From positions 75,001-139,000 of the forward strand of contig JAPMOS010000056.1 of the NCBI GenBank assembly GCA_027972325.1: a stretch of DNA of 64,000 nt. The letters are read 5' to 3'. The notes under the pieces are model-generated. The model made no database searches and was not told the origin of the DNA. It saw nothing but the letters and a program-made list of their open reading frames with translations. The DNA is from Paratrimastix pyriformis. Lineage: Eukaryota; Preaxostyla; Paratrimastigidae. How positions within the stretch are numbered: the stretch's first letter is position 1; each line of letters opens with the position of its first letter. The translations under genes and the position numbers were made by a program. Below are positions 46,162 to 56,135 of the stretch, in pieces.

Positions 46162-48832
46162 ATGGGCCAGGCCGAATCGAGATCCCACCTGCGGGAATCG
46201 CCCAATGAAATTTTGGGGAAATTGCCCAATGAAATTGTGGTTTCGATCTTCCGACATCTAGATTGCGTGACTTTGGCTTCTTTGATGCATGTTTCCCGAG
46301 GTTGGCATCAAATCATCTCAACCACCACCTGCTGGCCCGTTTCTCTTGCCCATGTTCCGAATTCTACATTTCCTGGGGACTTTGAGAAGCAGTTCCAGCT
46401 CTTCCTCAAGGTTTTTGCCCTTTTCCCCATGTCTCACGTCTCACAGTCAATCCCTTCTTAGGATCCCCTCCATGATTCCGTGAAGCGTATGAAGGCGCCC
46501 TCAGACACACGTTTTAAAGTCGTATTTGTGGGCGAGCGTCGTGCCGGGAAAACGGTTTGATGCCTATTTCGCCCATTCTGCCCTTATCTTCTGGTGATTT
46601 TAGTCTTTGGTATTACGCCTCCTGTCTGGGTCTGCCGCCACACTGACTAAAACCTCCATGGACTTAAACAAACTTCGTAGAGTGTCTGTGTGTCCATCCC
46701 CTTCCTTGGAGCCTCTCATACCCCGGGTCGTTGGCCGGTCACAGATTCCCTTCGGATTATATCCCCACGGTCGGCCACTGCTCTTTCCCGATGTTGGTCG
46801 ACTGACACATGACGATGGGGGCGGTAGGTCTTCGACAACACAGATTGCAATCTGGAGTTGGACGGGCGGACGCATCAGCTTGCTCTCTGGGATACGGCAG
46901 GTCTGATCGCCGACATCACCCACGGAGGCAACGACCTCTCACCTGTGCTGCCCGGCGCAGGCCATGAGGAGTACGACCGACTGCGGCCCCTGTCGTACCC
47001 CGGGACGGACCTGGCGCTCCTCTGCTTCTCGGTCGCATCCCGGGAGCAGTTCGACCGGGTGCGCACCAAGGTCCGTGCGTGCATCCTCCTCCTCGCATGA
47101 TGAGGATGATGACTGGATGATGATGGTGGTATTGATGATGATGACGGTGATAATGGTTATGCTGCTAATTGGATGACTGGGTATGGTTGATGAGGATGAT
47201 GACTGGATGGTGATGATGTCTGGATGATGCTGATGATGATGCTGATGATGATTGGATGATTGGATGCTTGGATGATTGGATGATTGGATGATTGGATGGT
47301 CATGTTGATATGATGGTATGCACGAACATCCGGGGCTCATCCTCCTCCCCCACCCACTCCCACCTCCCCACCCACCCCCACGCCACGCGCGCGCACCCAC
47401 ACACACAACAACAAGTTTCTGCCCGAGGTGCGCAAGCACGTGGAGGGTAAGCCGCCGGCCTTCCTGCTGGTGGGCTGCCAGGCCGACCGGCGGCTGGATG
47501 TCGGATGCAGCCCCCAGGCCACCGTCTCATACGCCGAGGTCCCTTTCCCGATCAGTCCACCCCACCCCCGATACATGCACACCAATGCCTCAATTACCCT
47601 CTCATACGCCGAGGTCCCTGGCCCGGCCCCAACCCGCTCTCAGCCCACCCCCGTCCACCCCACCCCACACCCACACCCTCCCCACCCCACACACACCATG
47701 CCTCTATTCCCCGGCCCGCGTCATCTCCCGCGGAAACGCCCCTCTGCCCACGCCCGCCACACATTCCATCGGCCCCTCTCCGCCATCCCGCCCTTCACCG
47801 CGTCATACTCCCCCACCACCACCACCACCACCACCACCACCACCACCACCACCACCACCACCACCACCACCACCACCACCACCACCACCACCACCACCAC
47901 CACCACCACCACCACCACCACCACCACCACCACCACCACCACCACCACCACCACCACCACCACCACCACCACCACCACCACCAATCACCACCAACCACCA
48001 CCACCAATCACCACCAACCACCACCAACCACCACCACCCACCACCCACCACCCACCACCACCCACCACCACCCCGACATCGGCAGTGTCTCCGGCTGGTG
48101 GTCGCGGAGGGCCTGGCCGGGTACGTCGAGACCAGCGCCCTGGCTGGGCAGTGCGTCGACCAGCTCCTCCAGCTGGCCCTCCTGTCCGCCCCCTCGCCTC
48201 CCCCCATACCCGTATCTGTCAAGGTACCCCTTCCCCGATCATGTTGACGTTGTTGTTGTTGTTGTTGTTGTTGATCGGATGATGTGATCAGGATGATGAT
48301 GATGATGATGATGATGATGATGATGATGATGATGATGATGATGATGATGATGATGATGATGCGGGATGATGATGAGGGAGGAAGCGGGGGGCATGATGAC
48401 ATGTGTTGGGGGATGGGCGACACGGGCTGTGCGCGACACCCACGCGCGTCACTCCTCCTCTACCACTACCACCACCACCACCACCCCCGCATCATCGCAG
48501 GACGGTCATCGACCTCAAAGTCGCGCATCGGTTCCACGAGTTGGTCCGCCCCCATCCACCTGCCCCGCACGCACCCTCCACACCACCTCCGCAGCACCCC
48601 GCCCTCCTGTCTGCCTCCGTTCCGTCCTCCTCACGCCTCCAGCACACCTGATCATGGGTCCCAGTCCCGCTCATGGCTCTGCCCAATTCATGCCCCCCCC
48701 CCCCCCCCCCCCCCTGGACGACGGGATCGCCAGGTCACGCGTCCCCCGGGTCATTACGCCACCCTGGCCGAGATCCGGACGGGCACCATCGCAGACGCAC
48801 GCCCTGCCCCAAGTCCCCACCAGCAGAAGTGA
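46162..48832 (+). CDS. F-box-Rho GTPase fusion, copy 1
   Basis: Exon 1 (46162-46410, 83 codons) starts MGQAES and holds an F-box, LPNEIVVSIFRHLD...SRGWHQI. A 51-bp intron joins in phase to 46462-46554 with KVVFVGERRAGKT (P-loop). Then come 46604-46629 and 46745-46769 (GFPSDYIPTVFDN, switch I), 46828-46900 and 46961-47070 ([19 protein letters not shown], switch II), 47416-47538 ([20 protein letters not shown]) and from 48086 ([16 protein letters not shown]). A short exon near 48501 (TVIDLKVAHRFHEL) and the last exon ([11 protein letters not shown], stop 48832) form a tail without a CaaX box. F-boxes bind SKP1 in SCF ligases. Rho GTPases bind effectors when GTP-loaded. Position 12 is Arg and the catalytic Gln is His, so GTP hydrolysis should be weak. 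Confidence 0.88.
47095..47312 (+). repeat. GAT/GATTGGAT intronic array
   Basis: Loose GAT and GATTGGAT units in the intron after the switch II exon of F-box-Rho copy 1, at the same place as the larger array in copy 2. Confidence 0.9.
47811..48077 (+). repeat. (CCA)n intronic array
   Basis: About 57 perfect CCA units then CCAAT and CCCACCA variants, in the intron before the G5 exon of copy 1. Long Thr, His or Pro open frames across it are artefacts. Confidence 0.95.
48250..48365 (+). repeat. (GTT)n and (GAT)n intronic array
   Basis: Seven GTT units then about 22 GAT units in the intron after the G5 exon of F-box-Rho copy 1. Confidence 0.95.
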
Positions 48833-53565: not shown

Positions 53566-56135
53566 ATGGGACAGGCTTTCTCGAGATTTCCCCTGCAGAA
53601 ATTGCCGAATGAAATTTTGGTATCGGTCTTCCGTCACTTAGATTGCACCACTTTGGCTTCTTTGATGCGAGTTTCTCGCAGTTGGCATCAAATCATCTCA
53701 ACCACCACCTGCTGGCCCGTTTCTCTCGCGCACGTTCCGAATTCGATATTTCCCGCGGATTTTGAGAAGCAGTTCCAGCTCTTCCTCAAGGTCTTCTCCT
53801 GTTTTCTGTGGTTCTCGACGATCCTTCCGTAGGAACCCACTCAAGCCGGGCACAGCTTGCCGTTCCCCACAATTCCACATTTAAAAGTCGTACTTGTGGG
53901 TGAACATGGTGCTGGGAAAACGGTTTGATGCATGTTTCGCCCATTCTGCCCTCATCCTCCGGTGATTTGATTGCAGTCTTTGCTGATTCGCGTCCTGAGA
54001 GGGTCTGTCGCCACCCCAATAAATAACTGGCATTGAATAACACTGTTTCTAGAGCGTCTGTGGCCATCCCCTTCCTTAAAGCCTCTCATCCCCCGGGTCG
54101 TTGGTCGGTCGCAGATTCCCCACGGAATATACCCCCACGGTCGGCACCGCTATTTTGGTCGACTGACATGATGAGGGGGTGTAGGTCTTCGATAACACGG
54201 AGTGTCAGATGGAGTTTTACGGGCAAACGTGTCAGCTTGCTCTCTGGGATACGGCAGGTCTGATCGTCGACGTCACCCAGGGAGGGGACGGGGTGTTACC
54301 GACCATCCGCCCAGATCTTGGGGCATCTGCTTTCTTCCTGCCTGTTGATTCATTGGACCGGTGTGTGTGGTGGGTATGTCACCCCGGTTCGTCTGCCCGT
54401 GCTTGTTTTCTTCTGTCTGTTATGTCACCCCGGTTCGTCTGTCTCTACTTGCTGCCGGCGCAGGCCAGGAGGACTACGACCGGCTGCGGCCCCTGTCGTA
54501 CCCCGGGACGGACCTGGCGCTCCTCTGCTTCTCGGTCGCATCCCGGGAGCAGTTCGACCGGGTGCGCACCAAGGTCCGTGTGTGCATCCTGATGATGATG
54601 ATGATGATGATGATGATGATGATGATGATGATGATGATGATGATGATGATGATGATGATGATGATGATGATGATTGGATGATGATGATGATGATGATGAT
54701 GATGATGATGATGATGATGATGATGATGATGATGATGATGATGATGATGATGATGATGATGATGATGATGATGATGATGATGATGATGATGATGATGATG
54801 ATGATGATTGGATGATGATGATGATGATGATGATGATGATGATGATGATGATGATGATGATGATGATGATGATGATGGTGATGATTGGATGATGATGATG
54901 ATTGGACGATTGGATGATGACTGGATGATGACTGGATGATGATGAGGGTGCGATGCAGGAACACGATCATACCTCCTGCATCTTCCCCTCCCTCCCCCCT
55001 CCACACCCACACGATTTCTCCAAGTTCCTGCCCGAGGTGCGCAAACACACGGAGGGTAAGCCGCCGGCCTTCCTGCTGGTGGGCTGCCAGGCCGACCGGC
55101 GGCTGGATGTCGGATGCAGCCCCCAGGCCACCGTCTCATACGCCGAGGTCCCTGGCCCGGCCCCAACCCGCTATCAGCCCACCCTCACCCCACGCGGCCG
55201 CACCCCGCACAAACGCCCAGGCGCCTCGACGCCTACACGCGTGTTCCCGTTTCTGTTTTCCTGCTGTCTGATGGCACGCAGCACCATGATCGGCACTGCC
55301 TCCGCTCACACGGCAATCACACCCACACACACCACCGAACTTCCCCCCCGCGCCCATCCCCACTCACCACCGACATCGGCAGTGCCTCCGGCTGGTGGCC
55401 GCGGAGGGCCTGGCCGGGTACGTCGAGACCAGCGCCCTGGCGGGGAAGTGTGTCGACCAGCTCCTCCAGCTGGCCCTCCTGTCCGCTTGGCCCACCTCCA
55501 CCCCCCCCCCCCCCCCCCACACACACACACACACACACAGACACACACACATACATACCATCCGTGCCGTCTTGACCCTCGTTCCCTACCCCACCCAAAT
55601 GGGAGGAGGAGGGAAGAATGGAAACATGTGTGATGATCGATGCCCACACGCCCAGATGTTGAGCGACCGGGCCGCCTCACGGCCCTGGGGGCGCCTACCG
55701 TTTTTTGGGGGGCGCGAAATTGTCTCTCACGGGGTCGCGCGTCGTCAACCCGTCCTCGCCCCCCTGCCCTCTCGCCATCACCACCACCACAGGACGGCCA
55801 TCGACCCCAAATGCGTGCGCCGGTTCCACGAGAGGGTCCGCCACCCCGACACCAACCGCCATCTTCCCTCATCCATCCACGATCCACCCTGCCACTCCTG
55901 CCTACCCCCCATGACGCTCCCTTCTGTCCTTCGGCCCCCGACGGCATCCTCAGATCACGCGACCCCGGGCCTCTACGCCACGCTGGCCGAGATTAGGACG
56001 GGAACATTCGCCCCGACCGCACTGCCGGCGTCTCCCCAAGATCCCCAGCAGCAGCCACCACCAGCAGCAGCAGTGACAGCAACGGTGGCAGTGACCACAA
56101 CAGCAGTGACGGCAGCAGGAGCAATGACCATGTGA
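53566..56135 (+). CDS. F-box-Rho GTPase fusion, copy 2
   Basis: Exon 1 (53566-53790, 75 codons) starts [20 protein letters not shown] with the F-box. A 42-bp intron leads in phase to 53833-53922 with [13 protein letters not shown]. Switch I is [12 protein letters not shown] (about 54112-54195, split by a 45-bp intron) and switch [22 protein letters not shown] long GAT intron follows. The [20 protein letters not shown] exon, the [16 protein letters not shown] exon (about 55386), a short [14 protein letters not shown] exon (about 55794) and a last exon [11 protein letters not shown] ending at 56135 complete it. Unlike copy 1, the catalytic Gln is kept, but position 12 is His. There is no CaaX box. 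MGQAFS fits an N-myristoylation start. Exons for switch II are nearly identical to copy 1, so the duplication or a conversion is recent. Confidence 0.88.
54585..54948 (+). repeat. (GAT)n intronic array
   Basis: About 360 bp, mostly pure GAT with GATTGGAT interruptions, in the intron after the switch II exon of copy 2. Confidence 0.97.
55499..55555 (+). repeat. C-run/(CA)n compound tract
   Basis: About 20 C then (CA)n with GACA and TACA variants, in the intron after the G5 exon of copy 2, on the sense strand. Confidence 0.9.

Follow-up and report, generated by a model that had tools for sequence, protein, structure and literature searches.

In the RhoBTB proteins RhoBTB1, RhoBTB2 and RhoBTB3, a Rho-like G domain is linked covalently to an adaptor domain for a cullin ligase; GTP binding by RhoBTB2 despite a replacement at position 12 has been reported, together with an auto-ubiquitination model for RhoBTB-CUL3 (PMC4931677). 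ARF-family GTPases carrying an F-box or a BTB domain have been presented as lineage-specific innovations and read as recruitment into ubiquitin circuits, the F-box being named once, without species, in the main text of the paper (PMC8358228); the same paper includes a Malawimonas Rab-BTB-BACK-Arf protein, in which a Rab domain is likewise linked to a cullin-adaptor domain (PMC8358228). Here we describe two genes of Paratrimastix pyriformis, designated A (46162-48223) and B (53566-55486), both on the forward strand of a 64,000-nucleotide stretch (positions 75001-139000 of contig JAPMOS010000056.1, or C448; GC content about 60%), hereafter the window. Each reads as one spliced protein made up of an MG-x-x-x-S start, an F-box, a short linker and a Rac-like G domain, in that order. 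Judged from the sequences of this one genome (assembly of 56,060,509 bp in 495 contigs), the evidence as a whole is best explained, with modest confidence, by A and B being F-box-Rac-like fusions, members of a family of some 16 loci, that may serve as membrane-held receptors of the Skp1-cullin-F-box (SCF) type.

The models of A and B were built from motif frames and GT-AG borders, and all seven modelled introns of either gene were GT-AG and in phase, yielding proteins of 279 (A) and 258 (B) residues before the provisional C-termini. Pfam searches of the joined exons, with curated cut-offs of 24.3 bits for F-box-like (PF12937) and 21.6 bits for Ras (PF00071), placed both domains above cut-off in A (Ras, E-value 2e-31; F-box-like, 1.7e-10 and 40.9 bits) and in B (Ras, 4.4e-34; F-box-like, 2.6e-12 and 46.7 bits). 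A preliminary description of the window, which had proposed an F-box fused to a Rho GTPase in two paralogues and suggested such a profile search, is borne out in this respect. The borders it had given (46410/46462 and 53790/53833, for introns of 51 and 42 bp) were exact, with both junctions in phase 0, and switch I (in A, FPSDYIPTVFDN), switch II and the G5 motif ETSAL followed in frame once the further GT-AG introns were removed. Its observation is thus confirmed; its interpretation, taken up below, is partly supported.

In A and B themselves the fusion depends on the splice model. Left unspliced, the F-box frames end exactly at the acceptor TAG, the open reading frames closing at 46461 in A and 53832 in B, so that a retained intron 1 would stop translation at its own acceptor and splicing is required in both genes. 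An F-box exon ending in its own stop and poly-A site had been put forward in the preliminary description as grounds for giving up the fusion; the unspliced frame does stop in this way in both copies, and it is the paralogues lacking the intron that decide for fusion. In six paralogues elsewhere in the genome, a single open frame was found to extend from the F-box at least as far as the P-loop. In the first, C222_591 (L028, at C222:591k), the frame runs without interruption from the F-box to a CAVS end, with matches to F-box-like (9e-8) and Ras (1.2e-4; 22.2 bits, just above the 21.6-bit cut-off); against the PDB, its residues 14-59 matched FBXW7 (7.6e-5) and residues 90-153 matched RABF2b weakly (0.0092). 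One frame likewise spans F-box through G3 in C79 (L066; Ras 8.3e-12, F-box-like 1.5e-4, the latter below cut-off) and in C1_83 (L073, at C1:83k; Ras alone below cut-off). In C113 (L039) a single tblastn stretch matched residues 1-105 of B, from the F-box through the P-loop (48%, 1.8e-23), and C101 (L026) and C441 (L072, at C441:157k) hold F-box to P-loop in one frame. Short in-frame introns probably occur further on in some of these frames (GT...AG before ISANYDL in C222_591; inside the P-loop in C79). No intron is needed between the F-box and beta1 in the single-frame paralogues, and the fusion is therefore independent of any splice guess.

A mis-joining by eye of an F-box gene and an independent neighbouring Rho gene, across a tiny intron that is not real, has in its favour that the unspliced F-box frame of A and B stops just at the proposed acceptor. 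Such a mis-joining is nevertheless very improbable, and we rejected it, because uninterrupted frames extend through the whole protein (C222_591), through G3 (C1_83, C79) or through the P-loop (C113, C101, C441), and because the order of the parts is identical in 16 loci. It is further contradicted by the comparison of C222_591 with C1_83, which lie on different contigs and align without a gap or break from MGRRP to beyond G3, a length of 157 codons. With dS of 0.29 and dN of 0.064, the ratio of nonsynonymous to synonymous rates (dN/dS) was 0.22 over this length, and it was similar in its parts (F-box, 0.22; linker, 0.25; G1-G3, 0.20), as expected under purifying selection.

Between A and B, dN/dS was 0.19 in the F-box exon, 1.08 in the P-loop/switch I part and 0.58 in the 3' half, where the two genes are nearly identical (dS 0.09) in what looks like a recent conversion. 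At the sequence level, the F-box of A and B is thus clearly kept, while constraint on the nucleotide site is less clear. Several results sit uneasily with a family of working proteins: the ratio of 1.08, which means that nucleotide binding by A and B may be weakly constrained; the EFDQVRAK stretch of C452 (L040 2658-2810, C452:541.2k), a part of the switch II exon that by eye is shifted by one base relative to its neighbours; and the G3 of C113, which by eye is degenerate. The last two suggest that some Rho-type copies may be decaying, even if the frame slip of C452 may reflect decay, an assembly error or an unrecognised splice. They also form the case for regarding most of the family as decaying duplicates, pseudogenes without protein function, to which may be added that the MGQRFS start of C465_3 does not share the frame of its F-box and that a dispersed element lies inside C113. 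We consider this improbable for the family as a whole, in view of the dN/dS of 0.19-0.22 on the A/B F-box and on the C222_591/C1_83 pair, and of the nine loci in which the frame containing G5 still ends in a CAAX motif.

Exon 1 of A (46162-46410) encodes the myristoylation-type N-terminus MGQAESR and the F-box, and is followed by intron 1 (46411-46461; 51 bp, GT-AG, phase 0), whose 3' end carries the in-frame TAG. The linker, beta1 and the P-loop GERRAGKT lie in exon 2 (46462-46554), alpha1 and the switch I segment FPSDYIPT in exons 3 and 4 (46604-46629, 46745-46769), and VFDN, the G3 motif DTAGH and switch II in exons 5 and 6 (46828-46900, 46961-47070). Exon 7 (47416-47538) covers the Rho insert region and the G4 region VGCQAD, in which the Lys of NKxD is replaced, and exon 8 (48086-48223) covers G5 and alpha5. 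In B, the corresponding parts are exon 1 (53566-53790; MGQAFSR and the F-box), intron 1 (53791-53832; 42 bp, GT-AG, phase 0, again with an in-frame TAG at its 3' end), exon 2 (53833-53922; linker, beta1 and P-loop GEHGAGKT), exons 3 and 4 (53977-54002, 54115-54139; alpha1 and FPTEYTPT of switch I), exons 5 and 6 (54185-54257, 54464-54573; the G-domain part after switch I), exon 7 (55025-55147; VGCQAD and a shortened insert region) and exon 8 (55383-55486; G5 ETSAL and alpha5). The 3' end of exon 8 is provisional in both genes, as are the last exons and their joints to exon 8, a weakness of the models: in A these exons (48501-48832) hold TVIDLKVAHRFHE and the C-terminal motif and stop at 48832, in B (55793-56135) the stop is at 56135, and no GT donor was found in either gene for the phase-2 joint that the conserved TLAEI frame requires. 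The C-terminal motif itself, [YF][AT]TLA[ED][IL], is present in all four Rho-type loci of the genome. Some of the larger introns are filled by very long repeats of (GAT)n and (CAC)n, at 54590-54945 in B and 47815-48060 in A, and these differ between the genes. Between the two genes lies an intronless frame of 756 residues (49659-51929, forward strand), leucine-rich-repeat-like and with an F-box-like start by eye, without a Pfam match at 0.1. Among the loci searched, the dispersed element AGGACGCAGGCGAAGAGAAACTTTACTCCCGC was seen at position 52172 of the window, at L027:2472 and at L039:3626, positions on three contigs that lie close to F-box-GTPase loci or within them.

The G domain of B was closest to Rac1 (5.3e-35), Rac3 and Cdc42 among the best 60 of 808 PDB matches, which extended to about 4e-33. 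Its Rho insert region is six residues short in the Rac1 alignment, and is thus shortened rather than clearly absent. The residue at the Gly12 position, assigned by eye, is Arg in A and His in B, the P-loops of the other two Rho-type loci reading GQKGAGKT (C113) and GPCEAGKT (C452). The Gln61 position is His in A (DTAGHEEY) and, by eye, in C452 (DTTGHEDY), and Gln is kept in B. In place of the G4 motif [NT]KxD, A, B and C113 have CQAD, on account of which A and B are atypical Rho proteins at most. No BTB domain was detected in A or B by Pfam at 0.1, and none of the six BTB matches in the genome lies on the contig of the window. Modelling the structure of the F-box exons from two sequences gave a mean predicted local distance difference test (pLDDT) score of only 48.5, and the model, being useless, was set aside.

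The two-copy F-box-Rho architecture of the preliminary description held and was extended by two more Rho-type loci, C113 and C452, as well as by the single-frame cases; what did not hold is its restriction to Rho, as 12 of the 16 F-box-GTPase loci of the genome (A and B included) are Rab-like. Four of these form a cluster on C465 (L025, C465:19500-29400; one gene on the forward and three on the reverse strand), and the others are C79, C482 (L027), C135 (L029), C101, C222_591, C1_83, C222_560 (L071, at C222:560k) and C441. The G domain of C79, the one Rab-like locus scored in full, was nearest to RABF2b/Rab5 (4.5e-34). Genome-wide, 99 Ras places and 117 merged F-box places gave 10 same-strand pairs in which an F-box match is followed downstream, within 5 kb, by a Ras match, where 0.5 are expected from the densities; together with the paralogues that lack the intron, this upholds the earlier contention that the architecture is not an artefact. 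The 10 pairs are made up by eight F-boxes, four of them in the C465 cluster, and the cluster supplies six of the 10 pairs (two of which reach a neighbour's GTPase), all three opposite-strand pairs and two of the three upstream pairs. The reverse order was observed on C37 (39032-42027, reverse strand), where a Ras match precedes a same-strand F-box match by 2.8 kb. Among 16 loci fetched for their F-box, 10 held one or more fusions, and two queries returned no convincing same-strand F-box-GTPase pair in L030, L042, L043, L044, L045 and L046. The candidates at C222:734k, C441:164k, C113:501k and C29:72k are left out of the count of 16.

Support for the individual members varies. The F-box exceeded its cut-off in eight of the 12 loci scanned as proteins (A, B, C113, C101, C465_4, C482, C222_591 and C1_83) and fell below it in C465_1, C79, C222_560 and C441, whereas Ras exceeded its cut-off in eight of 10 (A, B, C79, C465_1, C101, C482, C222_591 and C222_560) and fell below it in C441 and C1_83. 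C441, with both domains below cut-off, is accordingly the weakest locus. The assignments of C452, C465_2, C465_3 and C135 are based on genome-wide searches, tblastn and inspection of the sequence. Judged by eye, C465_2-4 (AGTTS), C135 (GMTS) and C101 (GRRS) have lost the Lys of the P-loop, and its loss from three genes of the C465 cluster makes these likely pseudo-GTPases behind related F-boxes. In a tree of the F-boxes of 14 of the 16 fused loci (C465_4 and C1_83 excepted) and eight others classed as unfused (the seven best and one more), meaning that no G-domain match lies within the 3-kb locus, the four Rho-type F-boxes formed one clade (95/93) and the Rab-like ones another (79/82). The split between fused and unfused F-boxes was weak (83/65) and occurred in 88% of bootstrap trees; the tree hints at a single origin of the fused F-boxes. 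An apparently stand-alone, near-canonical Rho GTPase was also noted (DTAGQDEYNKMRPFSYNQT, in L041 at C452:1030k, reverse strand), with no F-box beside it within 4 kb.

Predicted lipid anchors distinguish members of the family in a second way. For N-terminal myristoylation we used a PROSITE-type pattern, MG-{EDRKHPFYW}-x-x-[STAGCN]-{P}, which MGQAESR of A and MGQAFSR of B fit in the frame of the F-box. An MG[QT]xxS start in the F-box frame without a terminal CAAX was found in six loci (A, B, C113, C452, C465_2 and C465_4), and a frame that contains G5 and closes with a CAAX, without an N-terminal motif before the F-box, in nine (C465_1, C79, C482, C135, C101, C222_591, C1_83, C222_560 and C441); matches to the myristoylation pattern in C482 and C101 fall downstream of the F-box. 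C465_3, which has MGQRFSV out of frame with the F-box and no CAAX, was excluded from this count. The C-terminal frame of neither A nor B was found to end in a CAAX, two pattern matches there lying in other frames and the last-exon joint being provisional. The two kinds of predicted anchor are thus complementary, and zero overlap among 15 loci would arise by chance once in 5005, a figure that ignores relatedness although the copies are related.

The sequences show the fused architecture, its Rho and Rab5-like subtypes, two alternative kinds of lipid-anchor motif and an F-box under purifying selection; we infer an SCF role for the fused F-boxes. The F-box of A and B would bind Skp1 and so place the proteins in an SCF-type ubiquitin ligase at the membrane, where the G domain would act as the recruiting arm for Rho partners (guanine nucleotide exchange factors, effectors, GDP-dissociation inhibitor or GTPases), which would then be ubiquitinated. 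Substitutions of the Gly12 and Gln61 type render Ras and Rho proteins insensitive to GTPase-activating proteins (GAPs) and largely GTP-bound. The replacement of position 12 in A and B and of position 61 in A, together with CQAD at G4, would therefore make the G domain GAP-insensitive and largely GTP-bound, and it would offer a constitutive recruiting surface. Self-ubiquitination might provide the off-switch, as proposed for RhoBTB-CUL3.

A G domain of this kind could also be itself the target. The F-box would then act in cis, marking its own GTPase for Skp1-dependent turnover and thereby limiting the dose of a GTP-locked membrane Rho or Rab, with no other substrate. We find this rather doubtful: most F-box proteins recruit other proteins, and the members in which the P-loop Lys is apparently lost (C465_2-4, C135 and C101, by eye) cannot be explained by a dose-limited active GTPase. 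On the other side, an un-switchable GTPase with the substitutions seen in A would be dangerous without another off-switch, and neither A nor B holds a leucine-rich repeat, WD or other substrate-binding domain by Pfam at 0.1. RhoBTB proteins are themselves substrates (PMC4931677).

As to the partners that an SCF-type receptor would need, Skp1-like genes are present, a C-terminal piece of Skp1 matching with 6.8e-8 (SKP1-like), and F-boxes (117 merged places) far outnumber BTB domains (six matches), both figures being lower bounds. Skp1 exon pairs with identical scores occur on C139, C165 and C234, as recent copies or duplicated assembly pieces. The cullins are less favourable to the proposed SCF role. 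Four cullin loci were found, of which the best-assigned are CUL3 (1.4e-30) and CUL4 (7e-30) and a third is CUL4-like by eye; the sole candidate for CUL1, a divergent cullin on C21, is CUL1-best, and narrowly so, only in its Nedd8 tail (4e-5, against 2.3e-4 for CUL3), and its N-terminal piece is CUL3-best (2e-6, against 0.8 for CUL1). The search may have overlooked a CUL1 gene divided among short exons. The weakness of this candidate would suit proteins that work without a cullin, as adaptors in membrane trafficking in which F-box and Skp1 act by themselves and a degenerate GTPase domain serves as docking platform. The G motifs that appear degenerate by eye in several members, the Rab5-like G domain of C79 and the lipid anchors at one or other end are all compatible with this alternative. 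We hold it to be unlikely, as the presence of Skp1-like genes and of 117 merged F-box places speaks for an SCF-type system that functions, and the CUL1 may simply be divergent.

Taken further, the SCF reading would imply a whole class of ligases in this lineage, in which F-box receptors use small-GTPase domains (Rho, Rab5-like) as recognition arms, the anchor having moved in some from a CAAX to myristoylation at the F-box end. Such permanently membrane-held, GTP-locked or pseudo-GTPase receptors would degrade regulators of Rho and Rab, following the RhoBTB principle independently and on an SCF basis; we offer this as a tentative possibility. The G domains that follow the related F-boxes include near-canonical, apparently GTP-locked and P-loop-less forms, and the lipid anchors are of two kinds. 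This variety amounts to a natural experiment, by which it could be tested directly whether GTPase cycling is of any importance to such ligases. To our knowledge, the role of GTPase cycling in RhoBTB is not settled either.

Compared with Rac and Cdc42, the nearest solved structures of B among the best matches cited above, A and B share a nearly canonical switch I and II and differ in their N-terminal F-box, in CQAD for TKxD, in the replaced position 12, in the absence of a detected CAAX and, in B, in the shortened insert. The comparison with RhoBTB drawn in the preliminary description is fair as an analogy: the Gly12 equivalent is replaced in both (Asn in RhoBTB1/2, Arg or His in A and B), and, with the C-terminus of A and B provisional, a CAAX is absent from A and B as it is from RhoBTB1/2 (PMC4931677). 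It falls short in that the order of domains is reversed, the adaptor being C-terminal in RhoBTB (PMC4931677) and N-terminal in A and B. RhoBTB proteins, moreover, have two BTB domains and a BACK domain (the CUL3 route) and 611-727 residues, whereas A and B have an F-box (the Skp1 route), no BACK, a myristoylation-type motif at the N-terminus and, leaving the last exons aside, 258-279 modelled residues. Membership of A and B in RhoBTB was thus rejected, for want of a BTB domain and in view of the reversed order. The Malawimonas protein differs in its BTB/BACK and second (Arf) domain, with no F-box named for it (PMC8358228). The statement that no F-box-Rho architecture had been described agrees with the searched literature, in which the titles and abstract openings listed, all of open-licence papers and so no proof of absence, named neither an F-box-Rho nor an F-box-Rab protein. 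It needs the qualification that F-box-ARF fusions are in print, so that the kind is already known: like A and B they are lineage-specific innovations in which a GTPase of the Ras superfamily bears an F-box, the GTPase being of the ARF family there (PMC8358228) and Rho (Rac-like) or Rab5-like here. What looks new is that the variant is of Rho/Rab5-like type, that it has expanded to about 16 loci and that the anchor has been swapped. If this holds, the coupling of a Rho or Rab switch to an adaptor of cullin-RING ligases arose more than once by way of different adaptors, BTB in animals and amoebae and an F-box here, and such repeated origin would suggest that the coupling itself is favoured by selection.

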